Origin: Microbacterium sp. SORGH_AS_0862
Lineage (GTDB): Bacteria > Actinomycetota > Actinomycetes > Actinomycetales > Microbacteriaceae
Assembly (NCBI RefSeq): GCF_030818795.1
Contig: NZ_JAUTAY010000001.1
Location: forward strand, 3,440,870-3,504,869
Reading direction: 5' to 3'
Length of the DNA stretch: 64,000 nt
Shown: piece by piece, positions 31,420 through 38,973 of the stretch
How positions within the stretch are numbered: position 1 is the first letter of the stretch
How the letters are laid out: each line of letters starts with the position of its first letter
Made by a program: the position numbers and the translations under genes
Notes under the pieces: model-generated
What the model was told of the DNA's origin: nothing
The model's input: the letters and a program-made list of their open reading frames with translations, nothing else
Databases searched by the model: none

Positions 31420-33489
31420 TCAGGCGTCGATGGATTCGCGCGAGAGCCGGTCGCTCGAAGTCACGATGAAGTCGCGGCGCGGGGCCACGTCGTTGCCCAT
31501 CAGGAGCTCGAACACCGCGTTCGCCGCATCCGCGTCCTCGACGCGCACCCGCCGGAGCATACGACCTGCGCGGTCCATCGTCGTGGTGGCGAGCTGATCG
31601 GCGTCCATCTCACCCAGACCCTTGTAGCGCTGCACGGGCTCCTGCCAGCGCTTGCCCGCCTTCTGCAGCTTCGCCAGCAACGTGTGCAGCTCTTTCTCGC
31701 TGTACGTGTAGATCGTCTCGTTCGGCTTCGTGCCCGGGTTCATCACGACCACGCGGTGCAGCGGCGGAACGGCGGCGTAGACGCGTCCGGCCTCGACCAG
31801 TGGACGCATGTAGCGGAAGAAGAGGGTGAGCAGAAGGGTGCGGATGTGGGCGCCGTCGACATCCGCATCGCTCATGAGGATGACCTTGCCGTAGCGCGCG
31901 GCATCGAGGTCGAAGGAGCGGCCGGAGCCCGCACCGATCACCTGGATGATCGCCGCGCACTCGGCATTGGACAGCATGTCGCTGATCGATGCCTTCTGCA
32001 CGTTGAGGATCTTGCCGCGGATCGGCAACAGCGCCTGGTACTCGCTGTTGCGGGCCAGCTTCGCCGTACCGAGGGCCGAGTCGCCCTCGACGATGAAGAG
32101 CTCGGAGTCGGCGACCTCGTTCGTCCGGCAGTCCGCGAGCTTCGCAGGCAAGGACGAAGACTCGAGTGCGGATTTCCGACGCTGTGTCTCTTTGTGGGTG
32201 CGTGCGGAGATACGCGCCTTCATCTCCGAGACGACCTTCTCCAACAGCTGCGCGGTCTGGTTCTTGTCGTCGCGCTTGGTGGAGGTGAACTTCGCCGTCA
32301 GCTCGCGCGAGACCACGTTGGCGACGATCTGGCGCACCGCCGGCGTGCCGAGGATCTCCTTCGTCTGACCTTCGAACTGCGGCTCCGGCAGGCGCACGGT
32401 GAGAACGACCGTGAGCCCCGCGAGGATGTCGTCCTTCTCCAGCTTGTCGTTGCCCACCTTGAGTCGACGGGCGTTCTGCTCCACCTGGCTGCGGACGACC
32501 TTCATCAGTCCTGCTTCGAAGCCCGCCTGATGCGTTCCGCCCTTCGGGGTCGCGATGATGTTCACGAACGAGCGCATGGTCGTGTCGTAGCCCGTCCCCC
32601 AGCGCAGCGCGACGTCGACCTCGCACGAGCGCTCGAGTTCGGTCGGCACCATCGCGCCCGAAGGCTGCAGCACGGGGACCGTCTCGGTGAACGTGCCTTC
32701 GCCGGTCAGCCGCCACGTGTCGGTGATGGGCGCGTCGGGTGCGAGGAACTCCGCGAATTCGGAGATGCCGCCGTCGAAGCGGTAGCTGGTCTCCACCCGC
32801 TCCTCGCCGCGCTGGTCGTCGACCACGATCTCGAGCCCGGGCACCAGGAACGCCGTCTGGCGTACGCGCTGCACGAGCTCGTCGAGTCCGAAGGTGGCGT
32901 CCTTCGTGAAGATCTGTCGATCCGCCCAGTACCGGATGCGGGTTCCCGTGACTCCGCGCGGTGCCTTGCCCACGACGCGCAGCTCCGAGGAGCGCTGGTA
33001 GGGCGTGAACGGCGCATCCGGGGAATCGCCGGCGAACGTGCCGGGTTCGCCGCGGTGGAACGACATGGCGTAGGTCTTGCCGCCGCGGTCGACCTCGACG
33101 TCCAGACGCTCCGAGAGGGCGTTGACGACCGAGGCGCCGACACCGTGCAGACCGCCGGATGCGGCGTAGGAGCCGCCGCCGAACTTTCCGCCGGCGTGGA
33201 GCTTCGTGAAGACGACTTCGACGCCGGTCAGTCCGGTGCGCGGTTCGACATCGACGGGGATGCCGCGCGCGCGGTCGCGCACCTCGACGCTGCCGTCGGC
33301 GTGGAGCAGGATGTCGATGCGCGAACCGTGCCCGGCGAGGGCCTCGTCGACGGAGTTGTCGATGATCTCCCACAGGCAGTGCATGAGGCCGCGGGAGTCG
33401 GTGGAGCCGATGTACATGCCCGGGCGCTTGCGGACGGCCTCGAGTCCTTCGAGGACCTGCAGGTGGTGGGCGGAGTACTCGGCAGTCAC
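31420..33489 (-). CDS. parE: Type IIA topoisomerase B subunit (topoisomerase IV, ParE-like), 689 aa
   Basis: ATPase subunit. GHKL motifs EIIDNSVDEALAGHG and GGLHGVGASVVNAL, a transducer domain, and a TOPRIM domain with IVEGDSALGTAK and LMSDADVDGAHI are all present. GDSALG instead of GDSAGG is the form of actinobacterial ParE. GTG start at 33489 with GAGG just upstream; the longer frame to 33603 lacks homology. Encoded convergent to parC, an unusual arrangement compared with gyrBA. Confidence 0.92.
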   Translation of the reverse strand: MTAEYSAHHLQVLEGLEAVRKRPGMYIGSTDSRGLMHCLWEIIDNSVDEALAGHGSRIDILLHADGSVEVRDRARGIPVDVEPRTGLTGVEVVFTKLHAGGKFGGGSYAASGGLHGVGASVVNALSERLDVEVDRGGKTYAMSFHRGEPGTFAGDSPDAPFTPYQRSSELRVVGKAPRGVTGTRIRYWADRQIFTKDATFGLDELVQRVRQTAFLVPGLEIVVDDQRGEERVETSYRFDGGISEFAEFLAPDAPITDTWRLTGEGTFTETVPVLQPSGAMVPTELERSCEVDVALRWGTGYDTTMRSFVNIIATPKGGTHQAGFEAGLMKVVRSQVEQNARRLKVGNDKLEKDDILAGLTVVLTVRLPEPQFEGQTKEILGTPAVRQIVANVVSRELTAKFTSTKRDDKNQTAQLLEKVVSEMKARISARTHKETQRRKSALESSSLPAKLADCRTNEVADSELFIVEGDSALGTAKLARNSEYQALLPIRGKILNVQKASISDMLSNAECAAIIQVIGAGSGRSFDLDAARYGKVILMSDADVDGAHIRTLLLTLFFRYMRPLVEAGRVYAAVPPLHRVVVMNPGTKPNETIYTYSEKELHTLLAKLQKAGKRWQEPVQRYKGLGEMDADQLATTTMDRAGRMLRRVRVEDADAANAVFELLMGNDVAPRRDFIVTSSDRLSRESIDA

Positions 33490-33655
33490 AATCCTCAAGG
33501 GTATCCGGGGCCACCCCCGCGGCTCTGCACAGACACGACGCCACCCGGGCCGCCGTACGCGGTCAGCGAAACGCGCGCCCGAGCGGGCATGGGTCACAGG
33601 CATGCATGGTTACATGTCATATCCGTACCCGCCCGACGCACCGAGGAGGTCTCCG

Positions 33656-33880
33656 ATGAGCACGACGTCGACACCCACCGAGCAGTCCGACGTACTGGAA
33701 CACCGGCTGACTGCCGCCGATCGCTGCGACTCGTGCGGAGCGCAGGCCTACATCGCCGCCGAGGTCAACGGCAGCGAATTGCTGTTCTGCGCGCACCACG
33801 GCCGCAAGTACGAAGAGAAGCTCCGCGCCGTCGCCACCAGCTGGCACGACGAGACCGCCCGCCTGGTCGACGCGGTCTGA
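33656..33880 (+). CDS. DUF7455 small zinc-finger-like protein, 74 aa
   Basis: Short protein with a CDSCGAQAY pair and a downstream CAHHGRKYEEKL, a possible C2-CH or C2-CHH zinc site. It is a small actinobacterial family of unknown role (DUF7455), usually near parE or sigA as here. The ATG at 33656 has GAGGAGG six bases upstream. It converges on the racemase gene. Confidence 0.88.
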   Translation: MSTTSTPTEQSDVLEHRLTAADRCDSCGAQAYIAAEVNGSELLFCAHHGRKYEEKLRAVATSWHDETARLVDAV

Positions 33881-33886
33881 TCCGCC

Positions 33887-34921
33887 TCAGCGGTATCGCC
33901 GCTCCACAAGCGGCGATACCCGCAGCGCGATCTCCTCGCCGATCGTGCCGATCGTCTCGGCCAGATCGGTGGGGCTCGCCGCATCCGTGCCATAGATGCG
34001 GACAACGTCCCCCGCGCGTGCGCCGTCCCATCCGACGACCACCGCAGTGACCTCTTCCACGGCAGACAGACGCCGCGGACCCGCCGGCGTCATGACATCG
34101 ACACGCCCTGCCAGCGCCGAGACCAACCCGTCCATCGCGCCCGCATCGATGCGCACCCGATCACCGTCGACGGAGAGCACCTCGGCGTCCCACGAGCCGA
34201 TGGGCGCGATCCCCAGTTCCACGTCGGCCGGGCCGCCCGCGGGGCGGATCCCGTAGCAGAACGCCCCCACCCGGACGAGGTCGTACCGGAACTCCGGGCG
34301 GGCCGAGGAAGCCGCGCTCGCGGCGAGATGGCGGAGCGGGCGGTCGAATCCCGCATCCGTCACGGCCGCGACGGCATGCTCGAAGGCGGCTCGCGAGAGA
34401 TCGTCCTCCTCGTCGGATGCCTCGGCGATGTGGCTCCAGACACCGGCGAGTTCCACGACGCCCTCACGCGCCAGCTCGACGACGCGGGCCACCGCATCCG
34501 TCCACGCTTCGGGCCGGATGCCGTTGCGGTGCAGACCGGTGTCGATCTTGAGGTGGATGCGCGCGCGGACACCGCGCGATCGGGCCGCAGCCGCCACCTC
34601 CTCGAGGAGATCCGCGTCGCCCACGCCGAGGTCGAGATCGGCATCGAGCGCCGAGAGGATCGCGCTCTCGCCCGCGATCATCCAGACGAAGATGCGCGGC
34701 TCCTGCGCGACGGCGCGCCGCACCTCGAGCGCCGTCGCGACATCGAACGCGCCGATCCAGCCGACCCCCTCGGCCACGGCGCGACGCACCACGTGCGACA
34801 CCCCGTGACCGTACGCGTCGTCCTTGACCACGAGCATGAGCGCGGCGGGTGCCACGCGATCGCTCACGACGGCGATGTTGCGCGCAAGCTGATCGAGGTC
34901 CACGTGCAGCACGGAGGTCAC
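33887..34921 (-). CDS. Alanine-racemase-type PLP barrel protein lacking the catalytic tyrosine domain motif (AlrN), 344 aa
   Basis: Fold-III PLP racemase. The N-terminal barrel is complete: Lys33 in VVKDDAYGHG is the expected Schiff-base lysine; IHLKIDTGLHRNG and VRVGAFCYGI follow. The C-terminal beta domain is short and aberrant: the SYG tyrosine motif and the IVGRVxMD motif of true alanine racemases are absent (RLSAVEEVTAVVVG stands there). The gene overlaps alrC upstream by four bases (GTGA). It may form a hetero-oligomer with that protein. A D-amino acid for the cell wall is the likely product; which one is unknown. Confidence 0.85.
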   Translation of the reverse strand: MTSVLHVDLDQLARNIAVVSDRVAPAALMLVVKDDAYGHGVSHVVRRAVAEGVGWIGAFDVATALEVRRAVAQEPRIFVWMIAGESAILSALDADLDLGVGDADLLEEVAAAARSRGVRARIHLKIDTGLHRNGIRPEAWTDAVARVVELAREGVVELAGVWSHIAEASDEEDDLSRAAFEHAVAAVTDAGFDRPLRHLAASAASSARPEFRYDLVRVGAFCYGIRPAGGPADVELGIAPIGSWDAEVLSVDGDRVRIDAGAMDGLVSALAGRVDVMTPAGPRRLSAVEEVTAVVVGWDGARAGDVVRIYGTDAASPTDLAETIGTIGEEIALRVSPLVERRYR

Positions 34922-35577
34922 GACGCCTCCTCCCGTCGAGCCCGCAGTCCCACAGCGGTCGCGATCTCGTCGGCGCGCCATCCGATCGCGCGCGCCCAGT
35001 CGGCGACGCGCGGACCGTCGTCGCCGAAGAACACCGCGCGGTCTCCGCGTGCGACAGGCGCGTCGCCGATATCGACGACACACACGTCCATCGCCACGCG
35101 CCCCACAATCGGATGCGCAGCTCCGCCGATCACGACGTGCGCTCGATTTCCGAGTTCACGCACGACGCCCTGCGCGTACCCGCCCGTGACCAGTGCGACA
35201 CGCGTATCGTGCGGCGCGCGATGCAGGTAACCGTACGAGACGCCCTCGCCGGCACGCAGGGCCTTGGTGGAGAGCACAGTGCCGACGAGCGTCATCGCAG
35301 GAAGCGTCCGATCCCACCCGAAGACGACGTCGGGCGGAAGCGTCGCGGACCCCTCCGTCACCGTACGATCGCGGATGGCGAGCTCGGCGGCGGCCTCGCC
35401 GTCGATCAGCAGCACAGCGTCCGTCTGGGTTCTCAGCGCGGAGGCGGTCGCCAGCAAACCGTGGCCGTAGGCATCGCGGCGAAGGTCGACGACCGGCGCG
35501 ACGATGCCGGCCGATCGGACGTTGGCCACGATGGCCGACGTGCGGATGCGCGCCACGGGAGCGCCGTCGTCGCTCAT
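34918..35577 (-). CDS. Alanine racemase C-terminal-domain protein (AlrC), 219 aa
   Basis: Complement of the preceding entry. About 60 N-terminal residues keep only the first strand-helix of the barrel, with LRRDAYGHG where VVKxxAYGHG would be, so the PLP lysine is Arg. After residue 100 comes a full racemase beta domain: GVSYGYLHRA (catalytic Tyr motif), GYAQG and IVGRVAMDVCVVDIGD. ATG at 35577 lies five bases after the gatD stop; the true gatD frame ends at 35583. In the sequence as given, the gatD frameshift fuses the two frames into 470 codons. Confidence 0.85.
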   Translation of the reverse strand: MSDDGAPVARIRTSAIVANVRSAGIVAPVVDLRRDAYGHGLLATASALRTQTDAVLLIDGEAAAELAIRDRTVTEGSATLPPDVVFGWDRTLPAMTLVGTVLSTKALRAGEGVSYGYLHRAPHDTRVALVTGGYAQGVVRELGNRAHVVIGGAAHPIVGRVAMDVCVVDIGDAPVARGDRAVFFGDDGPRVADWARAIGWRADEIATAVGLRARREEAS

Positions 35578-35582
35578 GCGTC

Positions 35583-36330
35583 TCAGAGCTGGATCGCGGT
35601 GAAGCGCTTGTCGACGGCCAGTCGCTCGATCTCGGCGCGCGCCGCGCGGGCGTGCGCATCGATCTCGGCATGCGCGGGGGCCGGGCGCGTACTGCGCGTC
35701 CCGACGCGCGAACGCCTGCGTGAGCAGCGCGTCGGCCAGGTCGGGGTTGAGCGGCAGCACCGGACCCTGCACGTTCGTGGCATAGACCGACCCCATGCGT
35801 ACCGTCTCGAACCCGCCCTCGATTCCGCCGTTGCCGGCGGTCACGGTGCCGTAGGCGATGACGGGATCGCCCAGGCGCCACAGCGACGCATGGTCTTCGA
35901 ATCCGATGAGCTTTCCGTCGGCGGTGTCGGCGACGACGTATCCCACCCGGCGCTGCTTCGTACGCCGCACGCGGGCGGGGATGAGTCCCAGTCCGTCGAG
36001 GTGCGTGCCGTCGACGAGGTCGATGCCCTCAGACAGTAGCTCCGACCCTCCGCCCACGGCGAGCACGACGGCATCCGCTCCGATGAGCGCCGCGAGCCAC
36101 TCTCGACGGCTCGCCAGGTCGTCTCGAACGACGCGCAGCGCCGACAGCGGACCGTTGCCGATCACGACGACGTCGGCTTCCGCCGGCGCGTCCTCACCGA
36201 TCCCGACGGGAGTCACCTCTGATTCGTGGCCGGCGAGCGACGCCCGCGCCGCGAGCACCTCCACGTTGCCGCGATCTCCCGTCACGCCGAGCAGATCGGG
36301 ATAGAGCTGAACGATTCGCAGCGTCGTCAT
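35583..36330 (-). CDS. gatD: GatD-like glutamine amidotransferase subunit with missing catalytic residues; +1 frameshift
   Basis: Homologue of GatD, which releases ammonia from glutamine for MurT to amidate D-Glu of lipid II. The fold is recognisable (GVTGDRGNVEVL, DVVVIGNGPLS, IGFEDHASLW, VQGPVLPLNPDLADALL). However, the nucleophile Cys (ICGGYQ in staphylococcal GatD) is Gly93 (AVGGGSELL) and the catalytic His (LHGPILP) is Gln188. There is no Cys in the protein. One extra C at 35676-35680 (GGCCCCC) shifts the frame near codon 218; corrected, it is 248 residues ending RFTAIQL. It overlaps murT by four bases. Confidence 0.85.
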
Positions 36331-37622
36331 CGTCGAGCCACCTCCTGATCGCCGTAGCCGAGGATGCGGCGACCGATCATCATGAGCTCGTAGTTGACGA
36401 ACCAGATCTGGCGGCCCGCGGAGGTCGGGGCGAACGCGCGCATGAGTTCGACGGCCTTCTCCATGTCAGGTTCCACGACTCCGATCGGGATGCCCGCGTA
36501 CGCGAGTCGTGTCGCGATCTGGTGCGCTTTCTCCCCCGTGACGACGTCCACGTGGTCGAAGGCACTGAGATCGACATCGTAGAGCCAGGAGACGTCGGGG
36601 GTGCCCTCGTCGATAGCCATGAGAACGCGCTCGGGCGCGCCGTCCAGGGCGTCGACGTTGAGCTGGAGGCTGGGCCCGTTCTTGAACATCACGAACTCGA
36701 CCTGTTCACCCGATCGGTCGCGGCGCAGCGGCACGAGCTCGCCTCGGCCATAGGCCGGCGTCATCTTCGCGAAGCCCGCAGCGGCAGCATCGGCCCGGAA
36801 GCTCTCACCCAGAACGTGACGCGCGGTGCTGATCGCGGCCGCAGCATCCACGGCGTAGTGCAGCCCGCGAGCGGGCAGCGTCACGGCGATCGGTCGACCC
36901 TCGAGCGTGATCTCGACATTGCGTCCGGTGACGGACGTGACCTCGCTCTCGGCCGGATGATCAAGAGCACCGACGGTTCCGCTGCGGGTGTCGGCGGCGT
37001 TGTTGAGCCCGTGCGCCGATGCGGCGACGACCTCGCGCGATGCGCCGAAGAACGACACCGGAGACCGCAGCGCCGAGGCGTCGATCTTGCTGAGGTAGGG
37101 ATCGTCGCGGTTGACCACGACACGCACCGAGGCGCGGGTCGCGGCGTCGAGCATCATGTCGGCGACCCGCTCGGTCTCGTAGAAGCGGTAGAGCTGGTCC
37201 ACCTGGACGTTGAGCGCGACGATGACGCGCGGCGACAGGATGTCGGCGAGATCCGCCGCGTACCCCTCGTCCACTTCGAGCACGGCGACGTCGGCCCGGA
37301 CCTTGCCGGTCGGGGTCGCTTCGGCGAGCAGCGCGCTGGTCACACCCTGGGGCAGGTTGGCGCCGGTGGGATTGGTGAACACACGCAGCCCGTGGGCGCG
37401 CAGCACCTCGCTGACCATGTGCGTGGTCGTCGTCTTCCCGTTGGAGCCGAGGACGAACACCACGCCGTAAGGGAACTGCGCCGCGAGGCTGCTCAGCAGC
37501 GTCGGCGCGAGCCGGTTGGCGACGTACCCCGGGAAGGCCGACCCGCCACCACGCAGACGCGTGGCGAAACGGGCGGCCTTGCCTGCGAGCACCGCGGGGA
37601 CATAACGGATGCTGCCGCTCAC
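36327..37622 (-). CDS. murT: MurT-like Mur ligase, lipid II D-Glu alpha-carboxyl ligase, 431 aa
   Basis: ATP-dependent Mur-ligase-type enzyme acting on the D-Glu alpha-carboxyl of lipid II. P-loop GSNGKTTTT (about 59-67), LEVDEGYAADL, and LNVQVDQLYRFYE in the central domain; C-terminal DUF1727 domain with DVSWLYDVD (Asp343) as in MurT. The Cys4 zinc ribbon of staphylococcal and streptococcal MurT is replaced by a Cys-free loop (about residues 190-225). GTG start seven bases after the sigA stop. With pseudo-GatD it may ligate an amino acid instead of ammonia. Confidence 0.9.
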   Translation of the reverse strand: MSGSIRYVPAVLAGKAARFATRLRGGGSAFPGYVANRLAPTLLSSLAAQFPYGVVFVLGSNGKTTTTHMVSEVLRAHGLRVFTNPTGANLPQGVTSALLAEATPTGKVRADVAVLEVDEGYAADLADILSPRVIVALNVQVDQLYRFYETERVADMMLDAATRASVRVVVNRDDPYLSKIDASALRSPVSFFGASREVVAASAHGLNNAADTRSGTVGALDHPAESEVTSVTGRNVEITLEGRPIAVTLPARGLHYAVDAAAAISTARHVLGESFRADAAAAGFAKMTPAYGRGELVPLRRDRSGEQVEFVMFKNGPSLQLNVDALDGAPERVLMAIDEGTPDVSWLYDVDLSAFDHVDVVTGEKAHQIATRLAYAGIPIGVVEPDMEKAVELMRAFAPTSAGRQIWFVNYELMMIGRRILGYGDQEVARR

Positions 37623-37629
37623 GCCCCGA

Positions 37630-38973
37630 TCACTCCAGGTAGTCGCGCAGCGACTGCGAACGGCTGGGGTGCCGCAGCTTCGCCATCGTCTTCGACTCGA
37701 TCTGACGGATCCGCTCGCGGGTCACACCGAACGTGTCGCCGATCTGGTCGAGGGTCTTGGGCTGTCCGTCGCCGAGACCGAAACGCATGCGGATGACACC
37801 CGCTTCGCGCTCGCTGAGCGAGTCCAGCAGAGACTCGAGCTGCCGCTGCAGCATGGTGAAGCCCACCGCATCGGCGGGGACCACCGCCTCGGTGTCCTCG
37901 ATGAGATCACCGAACTCGCTGTCGCCGTCTTCGCCCAGCGGCGTGTGCAGCGAAATCGGCTCACGACCGTACTTCTGCACCTCGATGACCTTCTCGGGGG
38001 TCATGTCGAGCTCACGACTGAGCTCCTCAGGCGTGGGCTCGCGACCCAGGTCCTGGAGCATCTGGCGCTGCACGCGGGCGAGCTTGTTGATGACCTCGAC
38101 CATGTGGACCGGGATACGGATGGTGCGAGCCTGGTCCGCCATCGCGCGCGTGATGGCCTGACGGATCCACCACGTCGCGTAGGTCGAGAACTTGAAGCCC
38201 TTGGTGTAGTCGAACTTCTCGACGGCGCGGATGAGGCCGAGGTTGCCCTCCTGGATGAGATCCAGGAACTGCATGCCGCGTCCGGTGTAGCGCTTCGCGA
38301 GCGAGACGACCAGACGCAGGTTCGCGCCCAGCAGGTGGCTCTTCGCACGCTGTCCGTCGCGAGCGACCCACTGCAGGTCGAGTCCGAGCTGCGTCGACTT
38401 CTCGGCCGTCGACATCTTCGACAGCTTCTCTTCGGCGAACAGGCCCGCCTCGATCCGCATGGCGAGCTCGACCTCTTCGGCCGCGTTCAGCAGCGGGACC
38501 TTACCGATCTGCTTCAGGTAGTCCTTGACGGGATCGGCGGTGGCACCGGTGATCTGCGTCGAATAGACAGGGACGTCGTCCTCGTCACTCGACGAGATGA
38601 CGATCGCACCGGTCGGAAGCGGCTCGCTGAAGGCGGGCTTGGTGTTCTCGCCGTCTTCGTCCTCCGCATCGTCGTCGGACGCCTTGGCGCTCTTCTTGTC
38701 GCCCGCAGTCGGCTGCTCGTCGCCCTCTTCGGCGTCGTCGCTGTCGTCGACCTCGACGTCCACGTCGACGTCGTCCTCGAACTCTTCCTCGTCGTCGGCC
38801 GCGGCCTTCTTCTTGGCAGGCGCCTTCTTGGCAGGTGCCTTCTTGGCCGGAGCCTTCTTCGCGGGCGCCTTCTTGGCCGGCGCCGCGGTCTCGGTCGCCG
38901 TGTCGACGACCTCCTCGTCACCCGGCGTCGCGGTCTTCCGCGAGCGGGATTCGGTCTTCGTGCCAGGAGTCAC
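37630..38973 (-). CDS. sigA: Primary RNA polymerase sigma factor, 447 aa
   Basis: Group 1 sigma-70. The N-terminus has a Lys/Ala/Pro tract of five KAPAK-type units and a long acidic run (about 30-95), then regions 1.2 ([16 protein letters not shown]), 2 ([28 protein letters not shown]), 3, and 4.2 helix-turn-helix ([19 protein letters not shown]). GTG start with AAAGGTGA before it. First gene of sigA-murT-gatD-alrC-alrN. The 200-base upstream region holds a TTGACA on the minus strand at 39031-39036 but no clear -10 partner. Confidence 0.95.

Follow-up and report, generated by a model that had tools for sequence, protein, structure and literature searches.

Directly after sigA, the gene of the principal sigma factor, Microbacterium sp. 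SORGH_AS_0862 carries four closely spaced genes, murT, gatD, alrC and alrN, on the minus strand. We analyzed them in a window of 64,000 nucleotides (the whole stretch of DNA presented here) from a genome assembled as one contig of 3,504,869 bases (G000). An original prediction, made from the letters of the window alone, had proposed that MurT and GatD join an amino acid to the D-Glu of the peptidoglycan precursor instead of amidating it, and that AlrC and AlrN make this residue in its D-form for the bridge of a group-B cell wall. The coordinates, strand and spacings given there (7, -4, 5 and -4 bases along sigA-murT-gatD-alrC-alrN) are correct. In Microbacteriaceae, the four genes fill a slot between sigA and DUF7455/parE-like genes (Table 1), and gene order is conserved in all 40 sigA-murT-gatD loci that we fetched, representing about 38 genera. 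The name parE for the topoisomerase gene is our assumption rather than the result of a family search.

Table 1. The sigA slot and its neighbors in the window
Feature	Coordinates	Strand	Evidence and remarks
parE/gyrB-type topoisomerase gene (presumed parE), next after DUF7455; served in the species tree	31420..33603	-	
DUF7455 small protein gene, usual right neighbor of the slot	33656..33880	+	PF24254 1.8e-22 with the enclosing ORF (33206-33880) as query; start codon picked by eye
alrN	33887..34921	-	Ala_racemase_N PF01168 2.9e-50, full barrel with Tyr43 and the PLP Lys; C-terminal domain degenerate, lacking Tyr265/Met312
alrC	34918..35577	-	Ala_racemase_C domain; barrel reduced to a remnant; PLP Lys lost; Tyr265/Met312/Asp313 kept
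gatD, GATase_3-like, without nucleophile Cys and without His	35583..36330	-	PF07685 5.6e-11
murT	36327..37622	-	Mur_ligase_M PF08245 4.7e-13 and MurT_C PF08353 3.4e-7, both above the gathering score
sigA, principal sigma factor, constant left neighbor of the slot	37630..38973	-	Relatives' blastp matches mostly 77-99% identical

A feature absent from the original prediction is that gatD does not form one open frame in this assembly. The frame shifts in a C-rich run near position 35,676 (35,660-35,690) and then runs on into alrC as a single open reading frame (ORF) of 470 codons. Because gatD is uninterrupted in nine distinct MurT-type Microbacterium loci (L060-L064, L231-L234), the shift is likely either erroneous sequence or a lesion that arose recently in this one genome; G404, whose MurT is 97% identical to that of the window, is among the genomes with an intact gatD.

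The known counterpart of the first two genes is the lipid II isoglutaminyl synthase of Staphylococcus aureus and Streptococcus pneumoniae, with which they share gene adjacency, a Mur-ligase core, a GATase_3 partner and an equivalent of residue D349. They differ from it in the missing glutaminase Cys (and, in the window, the missing His), in their position beside sigA with a racemase pair, and in scores far below the NCBIfam equivalog cut-offs: 114.1 against 800 for MurT and 71.7 against 400 for GatD, the latter obtained with the frameshifted ORF of the window as query. Alignment of the GatD of a relative (L064) to the solved chains 9sq9 and 6fqb places Gly at the position of the nucleophile Cys and Gln at that of the His. 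The GatD of the window has the same Gly and Gln motifs, upstream of the frame shift, with Gln in place of His189. The original statement that both catalytic residues are missing thus holds, and GatD is predicted to be incapable of Cys-dependent glutaminase activity. The same change, from Cys to Gly, was made in the C94G mutant of S. aureus GatD. MurT, for its part, retains its ATP-binding core: the P-loop is kept, with GSAGK-type variants in some loci, and is invariant (18/18) in our alignment, as is D343, the equivalent of S. aureus D349, while N61 is nearly invariant. No second MurT was found in the window genome beyond weak Mur-ligase-like matches. MurT shares the Mur ligase fold with the amino acid ligases MurC-F and differs from them by a truncated N-terminal domain (PMC6113224) and by its GatD partner. 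S. aureus MurT is said to replace MurE in vitro, producing UDP-MurNAc-Ala-Glu-Lys, with data not shown in the source (PMC3266927), so that amino acid ligation would be within reach of the MurT fold.

We then compared 124 distinct MurT-GatD loci besides that of the window. The nucleophile Cys is absent in 81/81 loci adjoining sigA and present in 43/43 loci found elsewhere. The Cys-bearing set consists of 12 loci inside Microbacteriaceae, with no sigA, DUF7455 or parE in the flanks examined, and 31 loci from elsewhere in the order, which were found with a Cys-type query that favors this type. At the Cys position, the 81 sigA-adjacent proteins carry Gly (51), His (13), Ala (9), Ser (4), Thr (2), Asn (1) or a gap (1; L393, counted as no Cys). 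A normal GatD at the same locus in a relative would have spoken against the original prediction; no Cys-bearing GatD was found among these 81. The 124 loci derive from 130 candidates, L110 having been left out beforehand as it contains no MurT: we removed L105, L400 and L408 (no GatD found), the duplicates L101 and L276, and L109, a Chloroflexi locus with the Cys and no sigA beside it, which was left out of the alignment. In L080, the upstream ORF ends as sigA. Three of the 81 (L102, L108 and L111) derive from metagenome-assembled genomes (MAGs) not labelled Microbacteriaceae. One of these, L111, is a contig of an 'Acidobacteria' MAG with a Microbacteriaceae-like sigA-murT-gatD arrangement; like P0253, a 'Planococcus sp.' MurT 84% identical to that of the window, it is probably misbinned or mislabelled. 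In L105 (Naasia lichenicola), MurT lies about 1 kb after sigA, and no GatD was found in the stretch examined.

We built a tree from 61 MurTs, in which a sample of 26 out of the 68 window-type sequences forms one clade with a support of 98/100, and 13 other MurTs form a second, distant clade (100/100); both occupy the sigA slot together with a Cys-less GatD. Since two distant clades at the slot are both Cys-less, the predicted loss of glutaminase goes with the locus, not with one MurT lineage. The second clade (L364-L376) has a GatD with FTHN instead of the Cys motif and mostly a zinc-ribbon MurT, and a PF14397-like ATP-grasp gene adjoins in 7/13 of its loci. Two further traits were rejected as markers. 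The MurT of the window indeed contains no Cys, as originally noted, but the lack of a zinc ribbon has no value as an argument: the double CxxC ribbon is missing from 43/43 MurTs of the Cys-bearing loci and present in 12/13 of the Cys-less second clade. Likewise, the GatD His is kept in 37/81 sigA-adjacent proteins, against 43/43 elsewhere, so that loss of the GatD Cys tracks with the locus, and loss of the His is not general.

The two remaining genes resemble alanine racemases. In the window, AlrC has Arg at the position of the lysine that binds pyridoxal phosphate (PLP) in Alr and keeps Tyr265, whereas AlrN keeps the Lys and has lost Tyr265. This holds for most of 78 distinct alrC/alrN pairs drawn from 86 loci: the PLP lysine is present in 78/78 AlrN and 0/78 AlrC, and Tyr265 in 75/78 AlrC and 13/78 AlrN. 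AlrC also has Met312 (78/78) and Asp313 (73/78), the Asp being kept by 27/78 AlrN. Each protein, as first proposed, lacks what the other keeps, and the pair appears to split one alanine-racemase-type active site, with the PLP-lysine half on AlrN and the Tyr265' half on AlrC. Alr, VanT, broad-spectrum and lysine racemases (PLP fold III) have the same barrel and C-terminal domain; here, in contrast, the active site is divided between two proteins, in each of which the half supplied by the partner is degenerate, and AlrC lacks most of the barrel. Pfam detects only the C domain in AlrC, a structure model revealing the barrel remnant, and this model matches structures of Alr enzymes, including that of a lysine racemase (4dza). 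The C domain of AlrN is weak (E 0.0035, below cut-off), and both proteins miss the NCBIfam Alr equivalog cut-off of 168 (AlrN 127, AlrC 87). Two complete Alr genes are present elsewhere in the window genome. The pair occurs, in either orientation, within the stretch examined in 22/40 sigA-murT-gatD loci. In G355, alrC and alrN have moved away from the slot and are still together; G455 is the only one of 22 MurT-type Microbacterium genomes with no AlrC-type match among the matches listed.

The slot is not always filled by the same genes. We observed three unrelated fillings: the window-type MurT-GatD, the distant and mostly zinc-ribbon Cys-less MurT-GatD, and a CofE-like ligase with an ATP-grasp protein. 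MurT is present in 22/119 Microbacterium genomes (E <= 1e-30), and a CofE-like protein (PF01996) in the other 97/119 and only in those, which makes the two exactly complementary, with 2 of the 22 CofE-like negatives (G478, G479) assigned by elimination. The CofE-like gene directly follows sigA in 24/24 loci read from MurT-less genomes, most of them with a PF14397 ATP-grasp gene in the flank examined. This protein, which is not encoded in the window, belongs to the family of the F420-0:gamma-glutamyl ligase CofE by its PF01996 score (39.9 bits, cut-off 25) and departs from the CofE equivalog (23.1 against 180.65) and in its location beside sigA with the PF14397 ATP-grasp and, often, alrC/alrN. 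Across a Microbacteriaceae sample of 349 genomes, 253 have MurT, 51 a strong CofE-like match and none both; when three weak CofE matches are counted, one genome (G174) has both. On a tree built from ParE and SigA (45 rows, of which 38 are Microbacterium), 5 changes of the MurT label are required, and well-supported branches force at least 3. Here G323, of MurT type, is placed as sister to G435, of CofE type, with 100/100 support. Since well-supported branches force these changes, the cassettes appear to have been exchanged repeatedly within the genus. The pattern at the locus is far beyond chance, and kinship between genomes inflates any p-value. With 97/119 genomes lacking it, MurT cannot be the genus-wide group-B ligase of Microbacterium, and we rejected this candidate role.

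A parallel exists beyond Microbacteriaceae. Elsewhere in the order, a CofE-like domain (38-45% identical, mostly below the PF01996 cut-off) makes up the C-terminal region of AsnB-like proteins (L458-L469); GATase_7 and Asn_synthase domains were detected in 4/12 of those scanned. Of these 12 AsnB-CofE proteins, 7 have the MCGI glutaminase motif at or near the start, and 5 are without it (three with MSGI, two with no recognisable start). MurT occurs in 40 and the CofE-like domain in 16 of 159 genomes of the order, with a co-occurrence of 0 (Fisher p 0.012, ignoring kinship). Intrasporangium calvum presumably belongs to the same order as the window organism. In its A-type wall, Gly is carried on the D-Glu alpha-carboxyl (PMC3035309), and this, together with the AsnB-CofE parallel, suggests that dead-glutaminase forms of MurT-GatD and AsnB-CofE may join amino acids.

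How far do these cassettes agree with wall chemistry? In group-B walls the D-Glu alpha-carboxyl carries the bridge, which is D-diaminobutyric acid (D-DAB) in Clavibacter michiganensis (PMC9603630), and Microbacterium species are reported to contain D-Orn, L-Lys or DAB (PMC10757982). A genome taken as M. testaceum StLB037 (G436), a species placed in the D-Orn clade (PMC10757982), has the CofE-like gene, ATP-grasp and alrC/alrN. A genome taken as M. invictum (G013) has the CofE-like gene, two ATP-grasps and no alrC/alrN pair; M. invictum is given as a lysine species, by way of contrast, in PMC10978784. Fifteen AlrC-less genomes, selected for a single, complete-Alr-like match and thus not a random sample, all have the CofE-like gene (15/15), accompanied by one ATP-grasp in 7 and two in 8, and none has the pair (0/15). 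A literature search of open-licence PMC articles returned no paper naming genes that build group-B peptidoglycan.

We consider it fairly probable that the cassette builds the group-B bridge, the Cys-less MurT-GatD joining an amino acid to D-Glu and the heteromeric AlrN/AlrC racemase making that amino acid. The set murT-gatD-alrC-alrN would then be one version of a sigA-to-DUF7455/parE cassette devoted to the interpeptide bridge. MurT would activate the D-Glu alpha-carboxyl of the precursor with ATP, as in S. aureus. Ammonia delivery being lost, an amino acid would serve as the nucleophile; the most likely one is a D-diamino acid, which in Microbacterium would be D-Orn. GatD would be retained as a structural or amino-acid-binding subunit. 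The AlrN-AlrC heterodimer, with one working active site, would convert the L-form to the D-amino acid; species without the pair may rely on a different racemase or build an L-diamino acid into the bridge. In most Microbacterium, the CofE-like and ATP-grasp ligases would do the same job, perhaps by attaching Gly first and the diamino acid second. A bridge of one residue would come from one ligase, and a bridge of two residues, for example Gly-D-Orn or Gly-L-Lys, from two. We infer both the ligation reaction and the identity of the joined residue from sequence comparisons. As a claim about MurT-GatD, the original prediction keeps its direction, given the Cys loss at the slot and the amide ligases that alternate there, and it cannot be extended to the whole genus. 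The finding is also more general than it supposed.

Would an amidating enzyme explain the locus equally well? A Cys-less MurT-GatD could still amidate the D-Glu alpha-carboxyl, using free ammonia or that of another glutaminase, with GatD only as a scaffold. In S. aureus, GatD C94G abolishes glutamine-dependent amidation and leaves ammonia-dependent amidation unaffected, the complex using ammonia at pH 8.5 (PMC3266927), so the possibility counts against amino acid ligation. So does the D349 equivalent, a glutaminase-triad residue still kept by 65/68 main-clade MurT rows (0/13 in the second clade); the kept MurT core likewise fits amidation. We nevertheless find this alternative unlikely: in group-B walls the carboxyl in question carries the bridge (PMC9603630), two MurT clades lack the Cys at the sigA locus and all 43 loci read elsewhere have it, the alternative filling consists of stand-alone ligases, and a racemase pair often accompanies the genes. 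For an ordinary amidation operon, the exact complementarity, the Cys loss in two clades, the repeated swaps and the split racemase site together make such a role unlikely. That the cassette is made of decaying remnants of amidation genes is very unlikely; it is refuted for the family and could apply only to the gatD of the window. This gatD is frameshifted, and apparent stops interrupt MurT in two genomes of the family (G073, G040), but the conserved order in all fetched loci, the AlrN Lys in every pair, the kept P-loop and the exact exchange with another ligase set are not signs of decay. MurT-GatD may otherwise join Gly to D-Glu, with the D-diamino acid added by a ligase elsewhere, an option to which we give a slim chance. 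Many Microbacterium have Gly in their bridge, and it is found on the D-Glu alpha-carboxyl in I. calvum. M. esteraromaticum, which has MurT, has a bridge that we take to contain Gly, another point against joining a D-diamino acid directly. However, ATP-grasp genes, of which CofE-like cassettes carry one or two, were not detected in the slot of any MurT-type Microbacterium locus that we read; this suggests that the MurT type adds one residue and the CofE type two. In addition, the bridge of C. michiganensis is D-DAB, and Rathayibacter iranicus, whose wall is presumably B2gamma, is of MurT type.

Further difficulties for the proposed bridge cassette concern the racemase. The pair is missing from the stretch examined in 18/40 loci. 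We also scanned seven named MurT-type records with an AlrN query (Curtobacterium pusillum, Okibacterium, Microcella, Amnibacterium, Naasia, Rathayibacter iranicus and an Agromyces MAG; few Microbacteriaceae were among the matches listed in a scan of named genomes), and only Microcella has the pair. D-diamino acids are presumably to be expected in several of the seven. The six records without the pair have one complete Alr (Rathayibacter, Naasia, Agromyces MAG) or two (Curtobacterium, Okibacterium, Amnibacterium). In Curtobacterium pusillum (L183/L197), the two complete alanine-racemase genes form a tandem on a contig separate from that of murT, and one of them may be an ornithine racemase. Conversely, an AlrC labelled M. 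enclense exists (P0086) despite the L-Lys wall reported for this species (PMC10757982). The M. enclense conflict and the presence of the pair in only 1/7 named records make it no more than one route among several to a D-diamino acid; the original proposal that it makes the bridge residue keeps its complementary sites, but the presence of the pair is not a simple match to walls with D-diamino acids. The same observations, together with the Tyr265 kept by 13/78 AlrN, might indicate that the racemase serves another purpose (D-Ala, D-Ser or other), or that AlrN works alone with a regulatory AlrC. We regard this as improbable, though not negligibly so, since AlrC keeps Tyr265, Met312 and Asp313, which are mostly or wholly lost in AlrN, complete Alr genes are also present, and the pair is absent from all 15 loci selected as AlrC-less, including that of the lysine species M. 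invictum.

A last difficulty is that 43/349 family genomes have neither a strong MurT nor a CofE-like match. We sought sigA in 28 of these and in Agrococcus and found 27 loci (26 and Agrococcus): 13 contain the second Cys-less MurT clade, 10 are empty between sigA and DUF7455, and 4 have other neighbors. Some group-B genera must therefore use other genes. The empty loci are L327, L328, L330 and L332-L338, whose genomes have no MurT or CofE-like match at the thresholds used. In L339, L341 and L342 (Agrococcus, genus g61), an apparent amino acid ABC transporter, judged by eye, follows sigA.

More broadly, MurT-GatD and AsnB-CofE may have repeatedly become builders of D-Glu bridges or side chains through glutaminase loss, explaining group-B walls, with an obligate heterodimeric racemase supplying the D-diamino acid; we put this forward tentatively, as somewhat less than an even chance. 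Group-B peptidoglycan, with its cross-link at the D-Glu alpha-carboxyl, has long been used to define a family of bacteria. If our reading is true, candidate ligases and a racemase can now be named for these walls, and a single locus would help to predict the wall subtype. A glutamine amidotransferase would have become an amino acid ligase through the loss of its glutaminase, and AlrN/AlrC would be a natural heterodimeric racemase with a single active site.

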